The notes under the pieces: model-generated
The model's input: the letters and a program-made list of their open reading frames with translations, nothing else
What the model was told of the DNA's origin: nothing
The model's database searches: none
Program-made: the position numbers and the translations under genes
NCBI GenBank assembly: GCA_947258655.1
Contig: CAMYJD010000033.1
Span: forward strand, 1-35,018
Length of the DNA stretch: 35,018 bases
Direction of reading: 5' to 3'
Source: an uncultured Gammaproteobacteria bacterium
Lineage (GTDB): Bacteria; Pseudomonadota; Gammaproteobacteria; JAADHQ01
In this document: positions 5,432-32,043 of the stretch, piece after piece
How positions within the stretch are numbered: the stretch's first letter is position 1
How the letters are laid out: every line of letters begins with the position of its first letter

Positions 5432-7699
5432 ATGATTGAGACCCTGCAATCCATAGTCCAGAAGGTCAATCGTGCACGCAATCTCGATAATGTGTTATCG
5501 ATCATCGTGCATGAGGTCAGAAAGGCGATGGAAGTCGACGTGGCCTCTGTTTACCTGACCGATTTTGAGCGCAAACAGCATGTGCTGATGCTGACCGAAG
5601 GTCTTGATGTCAAGGATATGGATGCTATTCGCCTCGATGAGGGCGAAGGCCTGATCGGACTGGTGGCCCGGCGTGCGGAGCCGGTTAACCTGGACGAGGC
5701 GCAGAATCACCCGCGTTATAAACTGTTCAAGGGCATCGGCGCGGAAGAACTACATGCATTTCTGGGTGTACCGATTATTTACCAGCGCGACGTGCTCGGC
5801 GTACTCGTCGTCCAGTGCTGTCGCGAGTCGGCCTTCAGCGAGGGTGATGTTGCGTTCATGGTCACCCTGGCTGCGCAACTTGCGGGAGCGATCGCGCATG
5901 CCGAAGCCCGTGGCCAGGGCAATAGTATCCAGAAAATCAAGTCGGCGACGACGGAGCTGTTCATCAAGGGCGTGCCGGGCGCTCCGGGCGTCGGCATCGG
6001 CACCGCAATGGTGTTGGCCCAGGAAGCCGATATCAGCCTGGTCCCGGATCGACAGGTTGATGACATTGATGAGGAGGTCTTCAGGTACCAGGATGCGCTG
6101 GCACAGGTGGTCAAGGAAATCGATGACATGAAAGAGGCGCTCGGCGAACAGCTCGATGAAGAAAGCCGGGTATTGTTCGATGCCTATGCGCTGCTGGTCA
6201 ACAGTGACTCGATTGTCGAAAACGTTATCGGCAAGATCAGGCAGGGGAACTGGGCCGAGGGCGGCTTGCGCGATGTGATCCAGGGTACGGTACAAAAGTT
6301 TGCCGATATGGATGACCCTTATCTGCGCGAGCGCGCCGACGATATCCAGGATATTGGTCAGAGGATTCTGCAAAAACTGGTCGACAAGGACAAAAAAGAG
6401 CGTAAATATCCACGCCGCACCGTTCTGGTTGGCGAGAATATCAGTGCCACAGACCTGGCCGAAGCCCCGACCAAGAATATTGTCGCCGTCGTCTCCACGC
6501 GTGGCTCAAGCTCGTCACATGCCGCGATCCTGGCACGTGGGATGGGGATTCCCACGGTCATGGGTGCCGAGGACCTGGATCTGTCCGAAAGTGATGGGCT
6601 TGAATTTATTGTCGATGGCTATCTGGGCAGGATCTACATCGAGTCTTCGGCCTCGGTGCGCCAGGAATATTCACGCCTGGCCCAGGAAGATACGCAGTTA
6701 AGCAGGGAACTGAACAGCCTGCGCAAATTGCCGGCGCAAACACCGGATGGCACGACGATCCCCCTGTATGTGAATACCGGCTTAATGGCTGATATTACGC
6801 CGTCAAAGAAAAGCGGTGCCGAGGGCGTCGGTCTGTATCGCACGGAATTCCCGTTCATGATACGCGACCGTTTTCCCGGTGAAGAAGAACAGCGCCATAT
6901 CTATCGCCAGACATTGAAGGCCTTTATTCCACGCCCGGTGACATTGCGCACCCTCGATATCGGTGGCGACAAGGCCTTGCCTTATTTTCCGATCGAGGAA
7001 GAAAATCCTTTCCTGGGTTGGCGCGGCATCAGGGTGACACTCGATCACCGCGATATTTTTCTGACCCAGATCCGAGCCATGCTCAGGGCTGCCAGCGGCC
7101 TCGATAATCTGAATATCCTGTTGCCGATGATCAGTGACCTGGGCGAGCTTGAGGAGGCTATATTCCTGATCGATCAGGTGTTCGCCGAGATGCAGGACGA
7201 TGGTGAGGAGGTCAGTTGGCCGAAGATCGGCGCGATGATCGAAGTGCCATCGGCGGTTTATCAGGCCGAGGAAATGGCCCAGCGTGTTGATTTCCTGTCT
7301 ATCGGTACCAACGACCTGACCCAGTACCTGCTTGCGGTCGATCGCAATAACAGCCGTGTGGCCAAGTTGTATGACTCATTACACCCCGCGGTATTGCGTG
7401 CCATTCACCAGGTCGTCGAAGCGGGGCATAAATATGGCCGCCCGGTCGGGGTGTGCGGGGAGATAGCCGGAGACCCGGCGGCGGCTATCCTGTTGCTCGG
7501 TATGGGTGTCGATAACCTGAGTATGACGGTCGCCGGTCTGCCGCGCATCAAGTGGGTCATTCGCAGCTTCAGTCAGCGCGATGCACGCATCATGCTGACA
7601 CGCGCATTGCAGTTTACCAGTGCCGCCGCCATTCGCGAGTACCTGAATTCCGCGCTCGAGGGCGCCGGTCTCGGTGGACTCCTGCGTGCCGGTAAATAG
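5432..7699 (+). CDS. ptsP: PEP-protein phosphotransferase EI-Ntr
   Basis: A 755-residue enzyme I of the nitrogen phosphotransferase system. It takes phosphate from PEP and passes it to NPr and then EIIA-Ntr, a regulatory cascade sensing nitrogen and potassium status. An N-terminal GAF domain occupies about residues 1-160 and the PEP-utiliser N-domain follows. The phosphohistidine is H363 in GSSSSHAAILARG. The C-terminal PEP-binding barrel contains GVGLYRTEFPFM, LRTLDIGGDK, FLSIGTNDLTQYLLAVDR and the active-site Cys in GVCGEIAGDP. The ATG at 5432 has a purine-rich AGGGGG upstream. It follows rppH. It ends 24 bp before the convergent ATP-grasp gene. Confidence 0.95.
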   Translation: MIETLQSIVQKVNRARNLDNVLSIIVHEVRKAMEVDVASVYLTDFERKQHVLMLTEGLDVKDMDAIRLDEGEGLIGLVARRAEPVNLDEAQNHPRYKLFKGIGAEELHAFLGVPIIYQRDVLGVLVVQCCRESAFSEGDVAFMVTLAAQLAGAIAHAEARGQGNSIQKIKSATTELFIKGVPGAPGVGIGTAMVLAQEADISLVPDRQVDDIDEEVFRYQDALAQVVKEIDDMKEALGEQLDEESRVLFDAYALLVNSDSIVENVIGKIRQGNWAEGGLRDVIQGTVQKFADMDDPYLRERADDIQDIGQRILQKLVDKDKKERKYPRRTVLVGENISATDLAEAPTKNIVAVVSTRGSSSSHAAILARGMGIPTVMGAEDLDLSESDGLEFIVDGYLGRIYIESSASVRQEYSRLAQEDTQLSRELNSLRKLPAQTPDGTTIPLYVNTGLMADITPSKKSGAEGVGLYRTEFPFMIRDRFPGEEEQRHIYRQTLKAFIPRPVTLRTLDIGGDKALPYFPIEEENPFLGWRGIRVTLDHRDIFLTQIRAMLRAASGLDNLNILLPMISDLGELEEAIFLIDQVFAEMQDDGEEVSWPKIGAMIEVPSAVYQAEEMAQRVDFLSIGTNDLTQYLLAVDRNNSRVAKLYDSLHPAVLRAIHQVVEAGHKYGRPVGVCGEIAGDPAAAILLLGMGVDNLSMTVAGLPRIKWVIRSFSQRDARIMLTRALQFTSAAAIREYLNSALEGAGLGGLLRAGK

Positions 7700-7723
7700 G
7701 TCGGGGTATAAAGCTTGCTGCTA

Positions 7724-8992
7724 TCAGCCAAGATGTAACAACGGCGATGTGACGATAGTCAATCTGGCATATGCCTGGCGTAAGGCGTTTTCAACTTGTG
7801 CCGCGGTTGGTGCCTTGGCGAAAATAAAGCCCAGGTAGCTGTCACCCTCAGGAAGCGGAACAATTTCATAGCCTTCCCTGATACTGATTTCAATGTCCTC
7901 GATCCATTCCAGTTTACTGGCTTCGAGTATTCCCTCGACGCGTCGCAGCAGTCCGTGTTCCGTTGTCGGTATCATTAATACACCGGCGGCATGATGTGCA
8001 GCTTGCAAATCCAGCGCCATACCCGCGGCCTGGCGGATGACGATTTCTTCGAGTTCCATACCGGTCGCATAATTGATCAACTGTGCACATTGTCCGCCGA
8101 TGGTACGTGCGGCCATTTCCATGAACCAGACCTGATCGTCGTGTATACGCACTTCGGCATGCACGGGACCATGAACCAGGCCATAGGCCTGACAGGCCTG
8201 TTGCACAGCCTGATATATCTGTTCTTGCATCGCGCTGTCCAGTCTCGATGGCGTGATGTAATAGGTCTCCTCGAAAAACGGGCCTTCCATCAAATCGGGC
8301 TTGTCGAATAATGCCAGTGTCTGCAGGCGCCCCTTGTGCAACAGTCCTTCGTAGGCATATTCATAGCCCGGGACATAGGTCTCCAGCAGCACGTTACTGC
8401 GTTCTTCATCATCACCACCAGCATCGGCAAGTATGGCCTGCAGACGGCGGCAGGCCTGTTGCAGTTCTATCTCATTATTGACGCGCATGACACCACGACT
8501 GCCCGACATGGCCAGTGGCTTGATGACGCAGGGATAGGGCAGGGCGCTGACCGGATTGTCGATGAGGCGCTGCAGTTCATGTTTTTCAAATGCAGGGATA
8601 TGGACAGTGGATTGTGCCAGGCATGCACGGGCCAGATCCTTGCGGCGTGTATACTGGCTCGAGGACGGATCATTATGGATCAGGCCCAGCGACTTTGAAA
8701 CCTGGGCGGCCAACACAACGGTCAGATCGTCGGTGCCGAGCACGGTGGCAATGTTCCTGCCTTGCAGTTGTGTGACGATTTGGGCGGCAACATTCTGGTC
8801 ATTGAAATTGACATGGATGCCACTGGCTATGGCACTGACCAGGGAATATTTCCCCTGGGAGATGACGATGACACGTATGTCGAGCTTTTCGGCCGCGCGG
8901 ATATAAGGGCCGAGTCGATAACTACTGTGCGGGCTAATAAAAACAATACACGGGCGTGATGTCGACGCCCGCGTATGCTCTATATCATTCAA
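7724..8992 (-). CDS. ATP-grasp carboxylate-amine ligase, orphan
   Basis: A roughly 420-residue ATP-grasp enzyme. Visible features are an N-terminal Rossmann-like preATP-grasp region (FISPHSSYRLGPYIRAAEKL), then LGTDDLTVVLAA. The ATP-binding Lys lies in PYPCVIKPLAMSGSRGVMRV, acidic residues in LLETYVPGYEYAYEG, and metal ligands in HAEVRI and FMEMAARTIGGQ. Such ligases join a carboxylate to an amine through an acyl-phosphate. Relatives include L-amino acid ligases and PurK/PurT-like enzymes. The substrate is unknown. The frame opens with TTG at 8992; no in-frame ATG is obvious nearby, and the ATG at 8988 is out of frame. It lies 24 bp downstream of the HesB-like gene, probably in one operon. 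Confidence 0.82.
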   Translation of the reverse strand: MNDIEHTRASTSRPCIVFISPHSSYRLGPYIRAAEKLDIRVIVISQGKYSLVSAIASGIHVNFNDQNVAAQIVTQLQGRNIATVLGTDDLTVVLAAQVSKSLGLIHNDPSSSQYTRRKDLARACLAQSTVHIPAFEKHELQRLIDNPVSALPYPCVIKPLAMSGSRGVMRVNNEIELQQACRRLQAILADAGGDDEERSNVLLETYVPGYEYAYEGLLHKGRLQTLALFDKPDLMEGPFFEETYYITPSRLDSAMQEQIYQAVQQACQAYGLVHGPVHAEVRIHDDQVWFMEMAARTIGGQCAQLINYATGMELEEIVIRQAAGMALDLQAAHHAAGVLMIPTTEHGLLRRVEGILEASKLEWIEDIEISIREGYEIVPLPEGDSYLGFIFAKAPTAAQVENALRQAYARLTIVTSPLLHLG

Positions 8993-9016: not shown

Positions 9017-9415
9017 TCAGGCGCAACCTCCACCACTGGCACCGCAGGCGCCGCAAGCGCCACTGCCACCAGTCGCGGCGAAGACATTATTGAAAACAAA
9101 GCTGGCACCGGTCGGTTTCTCGATATAGTCGACCTCGACACCTCTTAGGTAAGCCAATGCAACCGAATCGACATAGATCTTGAACCCGCCAAAATCCCTG
9201 ACCGTATCAAAATCGGTTTTACTGTCCGTGAATGTCATGCCATAGGTCATACCGCCGCAGCCACCACCGGAGACATAGATGCGGATCGCTTCGATATCTT
9301 CATCGGCATCGTCAAATAATGCGGCCATCTTTTCCTGAGCAAGCTGCGTCAAGCTGACATCGGTATCAGTCAGTGTCGTGTTGAATAGGTTTTCTGCTAA
9401 TGCTGCCTGGGACAT
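9017..9415 (-). CDS. HesB/IscA-family iron-sulfur carrier with atypical Cys tail
   Basis: A 132-residue A-type carrier-like protein. The start is ATG 9415, preceded by a strong GGAGG five bases upstream. Family features are the VSGGGCGGMTYGMTF motif with C53 and a preserved beta-rich core (GGFKIYVDSVALAYLRGVEVDYIE). Canonical IscA/ErpA proteins end with CGCG(x)SF. Here the C-terminus is Gly/Ala-rich with C121-GA-C124 and C131, so the CxC ligand pair is replaced by CxxC plus a third Cys. It may hold or deliver Fe-S clusters with altered geometry. It is divergent from the porin across a region with two Fur-like boxes, so iron control is plausible. It probably forms an operon with the ATP-grasp gene. 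Confidence 0.8.
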   Translation of the reverse strand: MSQAALAENLFNTTLTDTDVSLTQLAQEKMAALFDDADEDIEAIRIYVSGGGCGGMTYGMTFTDSKTDFDTVRDFGGFKIYVDSVALAYLRGVEVDYIEKPTGASFVFNNVFAATGGSGACGACGASGGGCA

Positions 9416-9649
9416 ACCCACCTCCAATTCATCAATATTAATATAATAATAACACCTGCCCGCATATCGTGCTAACCGATTAATATCCTTGTATTTGTAT
9501 GCCTTTTTACGCAGGACTGGTGCTTGTGGAGGGCTGCAACCAGCGCTTCGTCATATATCGTAGCGGCCATAGTCTGATGCGTTTGTCCCGGAATTATCAA
9601 GTCTCTGAGGCTATGTCTATCGAATATTAATACACTAAGATATTGTATT

Positions 9650-9664
9650 TGTTATTAATTATCA
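9650..9664. promoter_or_regulatory. Fur box-like site 1
   Basis: TGTTATT-A-ATTATCA matches 12 of 14 informative positions of the 7-1-7 Fur consensus TGATAAT-N-ATTATCA. The right half-site is exact. It lies about 175 bp before the porin start and about 235 bp before the HesB-like start, so it could serve either direction. Confidence 0.5.
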
Positions 9665-9739
9665 TAACGTGGTGTGTATGTGACGGAAGTGGGAAGAAGG
9701 CTTGATGATGCCCGCATTTAAGTCGATACTAAATCTAAA

Positions 9740-9756
9740 TGATAATGATTTGCATT
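9740..9756. promoter_or_regulatory. Fur box-like site 2
   Basis: TGATAAT-G-ATTTGCA at 9740-9754 matches 12 of 14 positions of the 7-1-7 Fur consensus, here with an exact left half-site. In the 19-bp alignment from 9741 it matches about 14 of 19. It lies about 85 bp before the porin start codon, a normal place for iron-dependent repression of a promoter. Confidence 0.6.
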
Positions 9757-9838
9757 AGTAATAATGTTATGAAATAATTCGTTGCATTAGAAATTAATCA
9801 AATACTTTTTAGCTGTAACTAACTGGAGAATTGTAATA

Positions 9839-11032
9839 ATGAAAACCCTGTCATCCGCAACCTTATTGCTGACCGCGCTGTCAGTTAATGTGAATGCTGC
9901 CGACACGCCTTCCCTGGATAAGATGTGGGAAAGTCAGCAACGTCAACAGCAACAGATCGAAAAGCTGAAAAAGGAAAACAAGCAGCTCGCCGAGCAGCTT
10001 GAAGTCAGCATGGACGCCATGGAAAAGAAAGATACCAAGATGGGACATGGTCATGGAGCGAAAGGTTCAACGTCCATCGGTGGTTATGGTGAACTGCATT
10101 TCAATAGTATTGAGGGCAAGGACAACGAAATCGATTTTCATCGCTTCGTATTGTTCTTCGGGCATGAGTTCACGGATGATATCCGTTTCTTCTCCGAGCT
10201 CGAACTGGAACACTCCCTGGCCGGTGAAGGCAAGGAAGGTGAAGTGGAGCTCGAGCAGGCCTATGTCGAAATGGATCTGACAGACAAGCATGCCGCCAAG
10301 GCCGGCCTGTTCCTGTTGCCGGTGGGAATTCTGAACGAAACCCATGAACCCGATACCTTCTATGGTGTGGAACGTAATCCGGTCGAAAAGGACATTATCC
10401 CGACCACATGGTGGGAGGCCGGCGTTGCATTGACGGGACAACTTGGTGCTGGACTCAGTTATGATCTGGCCTATACTTCCGGCCTGGCGACACCAACAAC
10501 AGGCAGTAACGCCTATAAAATCCGTAATGGCCGCCAGAAGGTCTCCGAGGCCAAGGCCAATGCCGGCGCGATTCTCGGTCGAATCAAATACACCGGTATT
10601 CCAGGCCTGGAACTGGCTGCCACGGTACAGCATCAGGCCGATCTGACCCAGGCTCAGGGTGCAGCCGGCACAAAAGCCAGTGCCAACCTGATTGAAACGC
10701 ATGCAGTCTATCAGAAAGGACCATTCGGTTTGCGTGCCCTGTATGCGCAATGGGATGTGGATGGCGCCGCAGCCGCAGCCGTTGGTCGTGACGAGCAGAG
10801 CGGCTGGTATGTTGAGCCTTCCTACAGGATTAACCAGAAACTGGGTGTGTTTGCCCGCTATAACAAGTGGGACAATAATGCCGGTGACTCGAATGCGACC
10901 GAGAAAAAGCAGACCAATGTCGGTGTCAATTACTGGCCGCATGAAAACGTTGTGCTCAAGCTCGATGTGCAGCGCCAGAGTGGCGCCACCGATAACGACG
11001 GCTTTAACCTGGGTGTCGGATACCAATTCTGA
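9839..11032 (+). CDS. Outer-membrane porin with N-terminal coiled coil and His-rich linker
   Basis: A 397-residue precursor. The signal peptide is cut after about residue 20 (SVNVNA|ADTP). Residues about 27-60 form a heptad-like, Gln/Lys/Glu-rich coiled coil, as in trimeric DcaP/OprO-type porins. A short HGHG segment follows, then a beta-barrel rich in alternating residues. The barrel contains GGYGELHFN, FHRFVLFFGHEF, ELELEHSLAGEG and GLFLLPVGILNETHEPDTFYGVERN. The protein ends YQF, the terminal aromatic expected for BAM insertion. GGAGAA lies eight bases before the ATG. Two Fur-like boxes upstream suggest iron repression. It is the first gene of a set with a flavinylated protein and a PepSY protein. 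It belongs to the phosphate-selective-porin-like clan; the substrate is unknown. Confidence 0.85.
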   Translation: MKTLSSATLLLTALSVNVNAADTPSLDKMWESQQRQQQQIEKLKKENKQLAEQLEVSMDAMEKKDTKMGHGHGAKGSTSIGGYGELHFNSIEGKDNEIDFHRFVLFFGHEFTDDIRFFSELELEHSLAGEGKEGEVELEQAYVEMDLTDKHAAKAGLFLLPVGILNETHEPDTFYGVERNPVEKDIIPTTWWEAGVALTGQLGAGLSYDLAYTSGLATPTTGSNAYKIRNGRQKVSEAKANAGAILGRIKYTGIPGLELAATVQHQADLTQAQGAAGTKASANLIETHAVYQKGPFGLRALYAQWDVDGAAAAAVGRDEQSGWYVEPSYRINQKLGVFARYNKWDNNAGDSNATEKKQTNVGVNYWPHENVVLKLDVQRQSGATDNDGFNLGVGYQF

Positions 11033-11045
11033 TTTGATGCCAGTA

Positions 11046-11080
11046 ACCGGGGGGAGTAAACTACTCCCCCCGGTTTTTTT
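11046..11080 (+). terminator. Strong intrinsic terminator after porin gene
   Basis: A 13-bp perfect stem pairs 11046-11058 (ACCGGGGGGAGTA) with 11062-11074, with a three-base loop. A seven-T run at 11074-11080 follows. The T run touches the ATG at 11081, so the downstream flavoprotein gene begins where this transcript should end. Confidence 0.93.
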
Positions 11081-11092
11081 ATGAGGTTGTCC

Positions 11093-11620
11093 ATGCGTTG
11101 GCCGTTGTTGTTTGCCCTGGTGATATACGCACTGATCCTGTCAGGCAGTCATGTATATGCACGCGGTGTTTACCAGGAGCCCGAGGCATTCCTGCAGGAA
11201 ACCTTTGCCAATGACGTTCCCAAGGCAGAAGTTGTGTGGGTTACGCGTTCGATACGTCCCGTAGTTGAAAAAATACTGGGTCACAAACCCAATGCACTAC
11301 GCATACGTTACTGGCGCAGGGAATCGCGTTCAGCGTGGATAATGGAAGAGATCGGCAAGGAAAAACCGATCACGACCGGTATCGTCGTCAGGGACGGCAA
11401 CATAGAGCGTGTCAAGGTACTGGTATTCAGGGAAAGCCGGGGCTGGGAGGTGCGTCATGATTTCTTTACTGATCAGTTCAAGGGCGCAACAATAAAATCC
11501 GATTATCTTCTCGACAAGCCGATCGATGGTATATCCGGGGCGACATTATCGGTGCGGGCACTGCGTAAGCTGGCCCGTCTTGCATTGTTTCTGGATCAGC
11601 ATGTCAGGACTAAAGAATGA
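11093..11620 (+). CDS. FMN-binding domain protein, predicted covalently flavinylated, exported
   Basis: The frame is open from ATG 11081, but that codon follows the terminator T run with no room for a ribosome binding site. I therefore prefer ATG 11093, which has TGAGG upstream (175 aa). The N-terminus is a signal peptide or anchor (WPLLFALVIYALILSGSHVYA). The key motif is DGISGATLS, the ApbE flavin-transferase target D-x-x-(S/T)-G-A-T. Its Thr (residue 155 from 11081, 151 from 11093) would carry FMN through a phosphoester bond. Such domains shuttle electrons outside the cytoplasm (relatives: RnfG, NqrC). Its stop overlaps the PepSY gene start (ATGA), so the two are coupled. No ApbE gene is in the window. 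Confidence 0.88.
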   Translation: MRWPLLFALVIYALILSGSHVYARGVYQEPEAFLQETFANDVPKAEVVWVTRSIRPVVEKILGHKPNALRIRYWRRESRSAWIMEEIGKEKPITTGIVVRDGNIERVKVLVFRESRGWEVRHDFFTDQFKGATIKSDYLLDKPIDGISGATLSVRALRKLARLALFLDQHVRTKE

Positions 11621-12408
11621 CAAGCAAGCGCAAACACCGATTACTCAGGTCGTTGTATATCTGGCATCGCTATGCCGGCATTAGCGCGGCATTGTTTGTC
11701 CTGATTCTGGCACTGACCGGCATCGCGCTCAATCATACCGAACGTCTGAATCTGGACAGTAGTTTTGTCGAGTCGGACTGGTTGCTGCAATGGTATGGAA
11801 TCGATGCCCCGGCACAGCAGCATGCCTATCAAGTGGGTGAGCACTGGTTGACCCATGTCGGTGACGGCCTCTACCTGGGTGAGCAACGCATCGACGGAAA
11901 TTACACGTTACCGGTCGGTGCATTGTCATTCCCGCATTTTATTGCTGTAGCGGTTGCAGGCAAGATCCTGTTGTTGACCTATGACGGAGAAGTCATAGAG
12001 CACCTTGGTGGTATGCAGGGCGTGCCTTCCGGTATGAACAAAATCGGTCTGCTGAAGGATGGCAGTATAGTTATCCAGGCGGCCCATGGTTATTACCTGA
12101 CCGATCGTGACTTTCTGAATTGGCATGAACAGGAGCAGGTAGTGGATGTGACATGGTCTGTCCCGGGCTCGGCTCCTGCGAGCCTGCTTGTCAGGGTTGC
12201 GCAGCTATATCGCAGTAATGAATTGCCTGTCGAAAGGGTCATGCTGGATCTGCATAGCGGCCGCCTGTTTGGCAGTTGGGGGCCATGGGTCATGGATGCA
12301 GCGGCCGTACTACTGGTTTTTCTGGCCCTGTCCGGTACCTGGTTATGGGCCAAGCAGCTCATACGTAAAAGGCAGCGTCGTCACAGTAAACATCCTGCTT
12401 CGCACTGA
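11617..12408 (+). CDS. PepSY-associated transmembrane protein, probable haem-b electron carrier
   Basis: A 263-residue membrane protein with an N-terminal segment YIWHRYAGISAALFVLILALTGIALNH. The His residues (H17, H40) flank the helix, the pattern of PepSY_TM proteins. A long periplasmic loop contains the PepSY-like VMLDLHSGRLFG. The C-terminal helix is WVMDAAAVLLVFLALSGTWLWA, followed by a basic cytoplasmic tail (RKRQRRHSK). Members of this family are partners of flavinylated FMN-binding proteins and of ferric-reductase systems. I infer that it passes electrons between the quinone pool or cytoplasm and the FMN protein encoded just upstream, which it overlaps by 4 nt. A terminator follows at 12463. 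Confidence 0.82.
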   Translation: MTSKRKHRLLRSLYIWHRYAGISAALFVLILALTGIALNHTERLNLDSSFVESDWLLQWYGIDAPAQQHAYQVGEHWLTHVGDGLYLGEQRIDGNYTLPVGALSFPHFIAVAVAGKILLLTYDGEVIEHLGGMQGVPSGMNKIGLLKDGSIVIQAAHGYYLTDRDFLNWHEQEQVVDVTWSVPGSAPASLLVRVAQLYRSNELPVERVMLDLHSGRLFGSWGPWVMDAAAVLLVFLALSGTWLWAKQLIRKRQRRHSKHPASH

Positions 12409-12462: not shown

Positions 12463-12488
12463 ATCCGCTATTTAGCGGATGGTTTTTT
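12463..12488 (+). terminator. Intrinsic terminator after PepSY gene
   Basis: ATCCGCTA at 12463-12470 pairs with TAGCGGAT at 12473-12480. GG and six T residues (12483-12488) follow. It ends the porin/FMN/PepSY transcription unit about 55 bp after the last stop codon. Confidence 0.85.
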
Positions 12489-30312: not shown

Positions 30313-32043
30313 ATGTTGTCAACAATAAGAGCGCGTATCCTGTATCCATTCATGCTAGCCATGCTGTTGCTTATCCTCGGTGGTGTTGTCACCAGTATCT
30401 ATATCTCCCGTTATCAGCTGAATGAGCATACACAGGATTTGCACGATTCCCTGTTGCATGTACAATCCCTGACGCAGCAACAGGAGGCACAGGCAATCGC
30501 CGGAATGCTGGATATCATCAGGGATGATGCGCAATTAATACAGGCCTGGGATGCCAGATCGCGTGAGGCATTATTGAAGCGTGCCAACGAGTTGTATCGT
30601 CATCTGAACGGCCGTCATGATATCACCCATTTTTATTTCCATGAACTTGACAGAAAGGTTTTTTTGCGTGTCCATCAGTCGCACCGCTTTGGCGATATCG
30701 TCGAACGCTCGACCCTGTTAAAGGCCGTGCAGACGGCGAAACCTGCCTATGGCCTGGAAATCGGTGTGCTTGGCAGTTTCGTCTTGCGCTATGTATCACC
30801 CTGGTATATAGATGGCAGGCTGGTTGGCTATATAGAACTGGGTAAGGAACTGGATAAGCTGGCGCGCAAGGTGGCCAATATTCTCGATATCGAGCTTTAT
30901 ATGTTCATCAACAAAGAATTGCTGTCGCGCGAGAACTGGGAAAGTTTTCATGTGATTCAGCAACACAATACCGGCGACAATACCATTCCATTCTGGGAAA
31001 AATTCCCTGATGTGGTCATGACCGAGCATACGTCCATGCTGCCCGCACGGATCTCGGCGCAGATCAATCGGGAATATTTGCATAACGAGCAAGTGGTGGA
31101 GCTTAGGGATAAAGCATTCGGGTATGATTTTTATGGCGGTACCATCGCGTTGCATGATATCAATGACAACGAGGTTGGGCATTTGCTGTTTTTGCATGAT
31201 GTATCTGATATTCGTTTAAATAATATCAGGACGGCATCCTTTCTGGGTCTGATCGGCGCCGCCTTGATGATCATTATTATGTATTTTTTATATCGCTACC
31301 TGGGTAATATAGAAAATGATATAAACATGTCACACCAGGGACTCGAGGATGAAATTGATCGGCATAAAAGGACCGAGGTCGATTTGTTAAGACACAGGAA
31401 AGAGCTCGAGAGTAGTAATGCCGAGCTCGAGTCATATAGCTATTCGATCGCGCATGATCTGCGCGCGCCGTTGCGCTCCATCGTTGGTTTCAGTCAGATT
31501 GTCAAAGACGAGGCGCTGGATCGTCTTGATGAAAGTGAAAGGCAGAATCTGCAGCGCGTCATCGATGCGGGTCGCAGTATGGCGGAACTGATTGATGATA
31601 TTCTACAGTTGGCGAGAATGAGTCGGCAGGAACTGGTGATCTCGCAAATAGATCTGGGCGAAATAGCACAAAAGATCTTTGCAGACTATCAGTTGTCACA
31701 TCCACAGCATACAGTCAATCTGCACCTGCAGGGCAATCTTGTTGCCATGGCCGATAAACTGCTACTGGATAGGTTATTGTTTAATCTGTTGGAAAATGCC
31801 TTCAAATATACCGTTAGTGTGCCCGCGGCAGAAATTGTACTCGGAAGCAGGATGGAGGACGATAAGCACATATTTTTTGTGCGTGATAATGGTATCGGTT
31901 TTGATATGCGTTTTGTCGACAAGATCTTCATGCCGTTTCAGCGACTACACGTCGGTCAACAGTACCACGGCACGGGTGTCGGGCTTGCTATTGTCAAACG
32001 TATCGTTGACAGGCATGGAGGCATGGAGGCAGGGTGTGGGTAG
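30313..32043 (+). CDS. dCache-type histidine kinase, C-terminus truncated by an 8-bp duplication
   Basis: A 576-residue kinase as read. TM1 lies at about 10-30. The periplasmic dCache_3-like domain contains HFYFHELDRKVFLRVHQSHRFGD and VLGSFVLRYVSPWYIDGRLVGYIELGKEL. TM2 lies at about 307-327. HisKA has H381 in SYSIAHDLRAPLRS. The ATPase boxes LLENAFKYT, DNGIGFD, MPFQRLH and GTGVGLAIVKRI are present. After DRHGG the frame runs into MEAGCG-stop. Removing one copy of the tandem 8-mer at 32012-32027 restores RVWVESTIDKGSTFYFTL and a stop at 32094-32096 (591 aa). The natural last strands of the ATPase fold are therefore missing. It lies 84 bp after the PAS kinase, with GGAG before the ATG. Confidence 0.9.
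   Translation: MLSTIRARILYPFMLAMLLLILGGVVTSIYISRYQLNEHTQDLHDSLLHVQSLTQQQEAQAIAGMLDIIRDDAQLIQAWDARSREALLKRANELYRHLNGRHDITHFYFHELDRKVFLRVHQSHRFGDIVERSTLLKAVQTAKPAYGLEIGVLGSFVLRYVSPWYIDGRLVGYIELGKELDKLARKVANILDIELYMFINKELLSRENWESFHVIQQHNTGDNTIPFWEKFPDVVMTEHTSMLPARISAQINREYLHNEQVVELRDKAFGYDFYGGTIALHDINDNEVGHLLFLHDVSDIRLNNIRTASFLGLIGAALMIIIMYFLYRYLGNIENDINMSHQGLEDEIDRHKRTEVDLLRHRKELESSNAELESYSYSIAHDLRAPLRSIVGFSQIVKDEALDRLDESERQNLQRVIDAGRSMAELIDDILQLARMSRQELVISQIDLGEIAQKIFADYQLSHPQHTVNLHLQGNLVAMADKLLLDRLLFNLLENAFKYTVSVPAAEIVLGSRMEDDKHIFFVRDNGIGFDMRFVDKIFMPFQRLHVGQQYHGTGVGLAIVKRIVDRHGGMEAGCG
32012..32030 (+). repeat. 8-bp tandem duplication, frameshifting
   Basis: GGCATGGA at 32012-32019 is repeated exactly at 32020-32027 and followed by GGC. 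Deleting one unit makes the kinase frame continue with the normal family ending, so the second copy is an insertion within an ancestral intact gene. Slipped-strand replication would make and reverse this. Confidence 0.88.

Follow-up and report, generated by a model that had tools for sequence, protein, structure and literature searches.

A conserved gammaproteobacterial operon of a porin, an FMN_bind flavoprotein and a half-size PepSY protein as a candidate system for periplasmic ferric reduction

The operon described here lies in a stretch of 35,018 nucleotides (the window) from an uncultured Gammaproteobacteria bacterium (contig CAMYJD010000033.1 of assembly GCA_947258655.1, positions 1-35,018 of the forward strand). 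It comprises three forward-strand genes that encode a porin, a predicted periplasmic flavoprotein with a flavin mononucleotide (FMN) binding domain, and a PepSY_TM membrane protein, and it is preceded by a Fur-type box. The porin gene (9839-11032) encodes 397 residues with a signal peptide, an N-terminal helix (26-65), a 16-strand barrel and a long, conserved loop that joins strands 5 and 6. The protein matches Porin_O_P (PF07396, 8e-14), and its structural model finds porin folds. The FMN gene (11081-11620) encodes a 179-residue FMN_bind protein (PF04205, 8e-8) with a signal peptide, which was judged by eye. It carries the flavinylation motif DGISGAT at residues 149-155 (11525-11545), and the codon of T155 occupies 11543-11545. 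The PepSY gene (11617-12408) encodes a half-size PepSY_TM protein of 263 residues (PF03929, 2e-13) in which two transmembrane helices enclose a partial β-propeller. Its ATG overlaps the stop codon of the FMN gene by 4 nucleotides (ATGA, 11617-11620). The three open reading frames and their overlap agree with the original prediction on this DNA, which had proposed that the genes serve reductive iron uptake.

The trio is a conserved and widespread operon of many aquatic bacteria. The FMN protein, used as query against species-representative genomes, found 64 loci that span Shewanella, Methylomonas and other Methylococcales, Colwellia, Cycloclasticus, Thiotrichaceae and many metagenome-assembled genomes. 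An FMN locus is found in 13/56 sampled genomes, counting the host genome (3.48 Mb, 98.7% complete). In the joint set of 77 gammaproteobacterial loci, a few of which are duplicated between collections, the trio lies on one strand in the order porin-FMN-PepSY. The porin accompanies the FMN gene in 74 of these loci, the PepSY gene does so likewise in 74, and no neighbour gene beyond the three is common to the set. A class-wide draw of 274 genomes, of which 59 have the FMN gene (carriers) and 215 do not, contained 61 strong porin orthologues (match E <1e-100). The FMN gene lies at most 4 kb from 57 of them, while two of the other four are at a contig end and two, of one family (G152, G263), have no FMN gene. 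The porin therefore does not stand apart from the redox genes in most relatives.

Two matches of 12/14 to the Fur 7-1-7 box had been reported upstream of the porin gene. Both are present, and the downstream one is the meaningful one. It covers 9740-9754 (TGATAATGATTTGCA) and forms the core of a 19-bp operator candidate on the forward strand (9738-9756, AATGATAATGATTTGCATT) that agrees with the symmetrical consensus AATGATAATnATTATCATT at 16/18 positions. This box is unlikely to have arisen by chance because it is the sole site of at least 14/18 in the 35-kb window. It is also the sole exact AATGATAATnATTTGCATT in the host genome, where nine matches with at most 2 mismatches were found (two of these are the two strands of a single palindromic site) and the reversed-pattern control gave 0. 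A search with the 19-mer GATAATGATAATCATTATC found nothing with up to 3 mismatches allowed, and the symmetrical form was needed. The first match (9650-9664, forward strand, TGTTATTAATTATCA) is weak and could be chance because another 12/14 match lies at 31265.

The box is conserved together with the operon. A site of at least 14/18 to the symmetrical consensus, at most 200 nucleotides upstream of the reading frame, precedes the porin gene in 44/71 loci versus 18/489 for all other reading frames of the same loci, and the FMN gene (0/71) and the PepSY gene (0/73) have none. The enrichment at the porin (Fisher p ~4e-32) is uncorrected for relatedness, and since the genomes are related to differing degrees, significance values here and below are guides only. 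The host genome encodes a Fur protein, and the conserved site suggests that Fur represses the operon. Elsewhere in the host genome, a Fur-type match precedes a gene for an SBP_bac_6/8-type solute-binding protein resembling FbpA (L109). The FbpA gene is a classical Fur target. A weak promoter-like match on the forward strand (9749-9778; TTTGCA, 18 nucleotides, AATAAT; 9/12) overlaps the Fur-type box with its first hexamer. It is a consensus match only, and such matches are about as many in this region as in shuffles.

Some further observations concern the boxes. In the host genome (L114, 1600-3019), a Fur-type box that forms a perfect palindrome (AATGATAATCATTATCATT) lies before a gene for a di-haem peroxidase-like protein. 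The divergent neighbour of the operon (9017-9427, reverse strand) encodes an IscA/ErpA-type iron-sulfur carrier whose C-terminal tail is rich in cysteine (ACGACGASGGGCA), and the weaker first Fur-like box sits between this gene and the porin. A comparable divergent gene is found in 6/77 loci.

The FMN protein is a predicted substrate of the flavin transferase ApbE. It has the FMN_bind domain, the D-G-x-S/T-G-A/S-T motif and the conserved threonine by which ApbE-flavinylated FMN_bind proteins are recognized, and G153, A154 and T155 are invariant in 71 orthologues. ApbE is not missing, as the original prediction had allowed it might be: the host genome has two copies above the cut-off, apart from the operon. 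In the class-wide draw, 56/59 carriers have ApbE versus 140/215 non-carriers, and the three carriers with no match are fragmented assemblies of 93-98% completeness. Covalent attachment of FMN to T155 by ApbE is predicted on these grounds. A profile search for a solved relative of the FMN protein found none.

In diverged relatives the membrane partner changes. The genes for the porin, the FMN_bind protein and ApbE are consecutive in G135 and G247 and are followed by a gene for a small membrane protein in place of PepSY. A related FMN-ApbE pair is clustered with imelysin, di-haem DHOR and DUF1513 genes in G088, and a diverged porin gene also stands beside imelysin and DHOR genes in G133; G087 looks similar by eye. 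The wider family therefore keeps redox surroundings, several of them iron-linked, with a changing membrane partner. An FMN module in an imelysin setting is also seen in L106 (4672-11951, reverse strand), with genes for imelysin (twice), a di-haem DHOR, a DUF1513 protein, a DUF6662 protein, an FMN_bind protein, an ApbE-like protein and a small membrane protein.

The model of the PepSY protein (predicted local distance difference test, pLDDT, 95) has transmembrane helices at 2-39 and 216-257 around a periplasmic β domain. Many proteins have β-propeller blades that align with this domain (about 64-178; best Z 9.9, root-mean-square deviation 2.5 over 112 residues). A Foldseek search listed only propeller-type chains, all with E >0.001. 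FoxB, the ferrioxamine reductase of Pseudomonas (PDB 7abw), is not among the matches listed, which one domain fills, and the listing carries no weight against other folds of the periplasmic region, such as PepSY domains. The link to FoxB accordingly rests on sequence. The PepSY profile matches FoxB in four separate segments, and taken singly only the fourth reaches significance. The first helix of the PepSY protein corresponds to FoxB helices 1 and 3 and its second helix to FoxB helices 2 and 4, which makes FoxB look like a duplication of a two-helix PepSY unit. A single-chain four-helix bundle with two haem sites, as in FoxB, is not seen here, since the confident model has two transmembrane helices. 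The protein probably dimerises, and the dimer would form a four-helix, FoxB-like di-haem cytochrome. H17 at the cytoplasmic end and H40 and H213 at the periplasmic end are 97-100% conserved in helices that align with FoxB, and they are expected to be haem ligands.

The AlphaFold model of the porin (pLDDT 84, lower in part of the strand 5-6 loop) has 16 strands and the N-terminal helix (26-65). The strand 5-6 loop takes the position of the constriction loop L3 of general porins and is among the most conserved parts of the protein (NETHEP..FYGVERNPVE). Strand alternation in the model predicts that the conserved residues E85, H87, D99, H101, E120, E122, E124, E137 and E139 point into the lumen. 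Porins of this family are strongly acidic, with a mean net charge of -25 over the last 385 residues and acidic conserved residues, which would argue for cations or metals over phosphate as the substrate. The Foldseek matches are porins in general and are uninformative on what passes through. A histidine linker (HGHG) had been taken as support for an iron pathway. The linker (GHGHG) is real, but it is confined to the porin of the window and a relative of the same genus, with GGGHG in one other locus. As it is peculiar to the genus and not conserved, this support fails, and the linker was rejected as a metal relay.

Genes for iron transport recur beside the operon. A TonB receptor gene lies directly upstream of the trio in nine Shewanella loci. 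The nearest solved relative of the receptor is FecA (its identity was checked in L050), and 7/9 of these receptor genes have a Fur-type box of their own. In another locus (L086), a TonB receptor gene and a full-size PepSY gene lie upstream of the trio. The gene order in one genome (G139) is an 18/18 box, feoA, feoB, a box, porin, FMN and PepSY. In two genomes of one family (G155, G265), FeoB and the porin are encoded divergently, and in G001 a FeoB gene lies ~2 kb beyond the operon. These four cases among 28 genomes with both FeoB and the operon are above random placement (p ~5e-6, two of the cases being one family).

The operon belongs among the PepSY-like flavinylated systems. These have been defined by a PF03929 or PF16357 protein at most five genes from a gene for a signal-peptide-bearing FMN_bind, DUF2271 or DUF3570 protein or for ApbE (Meheust et al., 2021; PMC8238504). 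The PepSY protein here matches both PF03929 and PF16357 above the cut-off, and its gene overlaps the FMN gene. The published clusters likewise place PepSY_TM beside a substrate of ApbE flavinylation, and some have links to Fur and iron (PMC8238504). Most of them contain DUF2271 (2833/3220), often with DUF4198 and apbE, whereas the operon here has a porin, a single FMN_bind protein, a half-size PepSY protein and apbE elsewhere in the genome. DUF2271 and DUF4198, which are frequent but not required partners, are not common neighbours in the 77 loci. The word porin is absent from PMC8238504, and in the open-access literature searched no description was found of a porin with FMN_bind and PepSY. 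The operon is therefore a distinct form of these systems, with a porin and a half-size, propeller-bearing membrane protein and without DUF2271 or DUF4198.

Several characterized proteins resemble single components. FoxB and HiuB of Caulobacter share related transmembrane helices and histidines of the haem-ligand type with the PepSY protein. HiuB, which is FoxB-like, also shares an iron-regulated setting, being Fur-controlled and needed for siderophore iron (PMC13001220). FoxB, however, has 382 residues, four transmembrane helices and two PepSY domains, whereas the protein here has about two thirds of that length, two helices and a partial β-propeller. FoxB and HiuB work with a TonB receptor, and the protein here stands beside a flavoprotein and a porin. 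VciB of Vibrio cholerae, an inner-membrane protein from the broad PepSY family, helps to reduce Fe(III) so that Fe(II) can be transported (PMC12004947). It is likened here by description and not by sequence, and no porin partner has been described for it. The phosphate-selective porins OprP and OprO share the PF07396 match and the 16-strand fold, but OprP has an arginine ladder for phosphate (PDB 2o4v) and the porin here is strongly acidic.

On balance, we consider it probable that the trio is a Fur-repressed operon that serves to reduce ferric iron in the periplasm for assimilation. Under iron starvation, Fur would leave the box at 9738-9756. The half-size PepSY protein would sit in the inner membrane, probably as a homodimer with the FoxB-like architecture of a four-helix di-haem cytochrome b, and would draw its electrons from inside. 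Since it has no domain for binding nicotinamide adenine dinucleotide (NAD), the donor may be quinol. It would pass the electrons to the FMN protein, with FMN on T155 as predicted, and the FMN protein would reduce Fe(III) or a small ferric chelate. This electron order, which we infer, fits the anatomy of the proteins and the precedents. In the weakest step of the scheme, the acidic 16-strand porin would admit iron or the chelate or release the freed chelator. Fe(II) would then enter via FeoB where FeoB is present. As to the original prediction of reductive iron uptake, the conserved Fur box and the iron-transport neighbours (feoAB and the FecA-like receptor) add to it, and its histidine-linker argument falls away.

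Several findings weigh against assimilatory ferric reduction by the trio. The porin is kept without the FMN gene in the two genomes of one family (G152, G263), and some orthologous loci have no recognizable box. The substrate and role proposed for the porin are drawn from its conservation and charge. FeoB is not enriched in carriers (27/59 versus 93/215 non-carriers), and a profile search of the 98.7% complete host genome gave no FeoB_C or Nramp match. FeoB was accordingly rejected as an obligate partner. The FeoB_N matches in the host genome resemble other GTPases by size and were set aside. A ZIP-family transporter is present there and is a possible route for Fe(II).

A scheme specific to siderophores would change the substrate and the direction of the porin. 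The FMN/PepSY pair would strip iron from a chelate imported by a TonB receptor, and the porin would mainly pass the emptied chelator or small complexes of the ferric-citrate type. The nine FecA-like receptor genes immediately upstream of Shewanella trios, of which seven have a separate box, the receptor and full-size PepSY genes of L086, and the FoxB and HiuB precedents all agree with this scheme. Most loci, however, have no receptor beside the trio and the constant partner is the porin, so we consider it rather unlikely. Reduction of another metal in the periplasm, most plausibly of Cu(II) to Cu(I) with a secondary link to iron, is very improbable. Published work connects PepSY_TM proteins with copper and with the function of haem-copper oxidases (PMC13038864; PMC12914433), and the conserved acidic and histidine-rich lumen of the porin would suit several metals, but the conserved box is of the Fur type and the transport genes that recur nearby encode FeoB and FecA-like receptors.

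The FMN protein could also feed an external acceptor in respiratory or extracellular electron transfer, in which case iron-linked control would reflect redox or haem economy and not uptake. Flavinylated proteins can replace cytochromes in respiratory systems (PMC8238504), and Shewanella is heavily represented among the carriers fetched. Further, one locus (L025) encodes a lipoprotein-like, di-CxxCH protein of 643 residues (5928-7859), with no Pfam match, between the porin and FMN genes. Against this, methylotrophs, Cycloclasticus and further lineages also have the trio, the loci share no terminal reductase as a neighbour, and iron repression is typical of genes for uptake; we give this account very little credence. 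A related thought is a conduit of porin and flavoprotein. In porin-cytochrome conduits of the MtrAB type, an outer-membrane barrel is constantly paired with a periplasmic redox protein. That protein is a multihaem cytochrome, whereas the one here would carry a single flavin, so the likeness is one of analogy, and entry into the barrel is not claimed. As a flavin counterpart, the pair would carry electrons to or across the outer membrane for ferric reduction at the surface, again for assimilation. We retain this as an unlikely variant because the porin and FMN genes are nearly inseparable (57/61), even where the membrane partner is swapped, and because of the conserved acidic and histidine residues of the porin.

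Periplasmic ferric reduction by the trio, if correct, would bear on wider questions. The operon suggests that iron could pass through a porin in addition to TonB receptors, and FoxB-type reductases may have arisen by duplication of a unit like the half-size PepSY protein. With its three compact genes and its conserved Fur-type box, the operon is present in cultured Shewanella, which makes testable the role of many uncharacterized flavinylated PepSY systems and the mechanism of periplasmic ferric reduction.

The remaining features are minor. A terminator-like hairpin lies in the gap between the porin and FMN genes (11045-11075, forward strand; a 14-bp stem followed by a T tract) and may lead to an excess of porin over the redox protein. 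Hairpins fitting a similar rule are found in 24/70 loci, a count made without a shuffle control. A second terminator-like hairpin, a consensus match only, lies at the end of the operon (12463-12480, forward strand). In two Shewanella loci (L047, 5754-6509; L050, 5793-6548), a gene for a 251-residue lipoprotein-like protein of no known family lies between the FMN and PepSY genes. Upstream of the Cycloclasticus trio (L045, 229-2969) is a second set of genes, which encode an FMN_bind paralogue and b561-like, short PepSY_TM, barrel-like and Rieske-like proteins.

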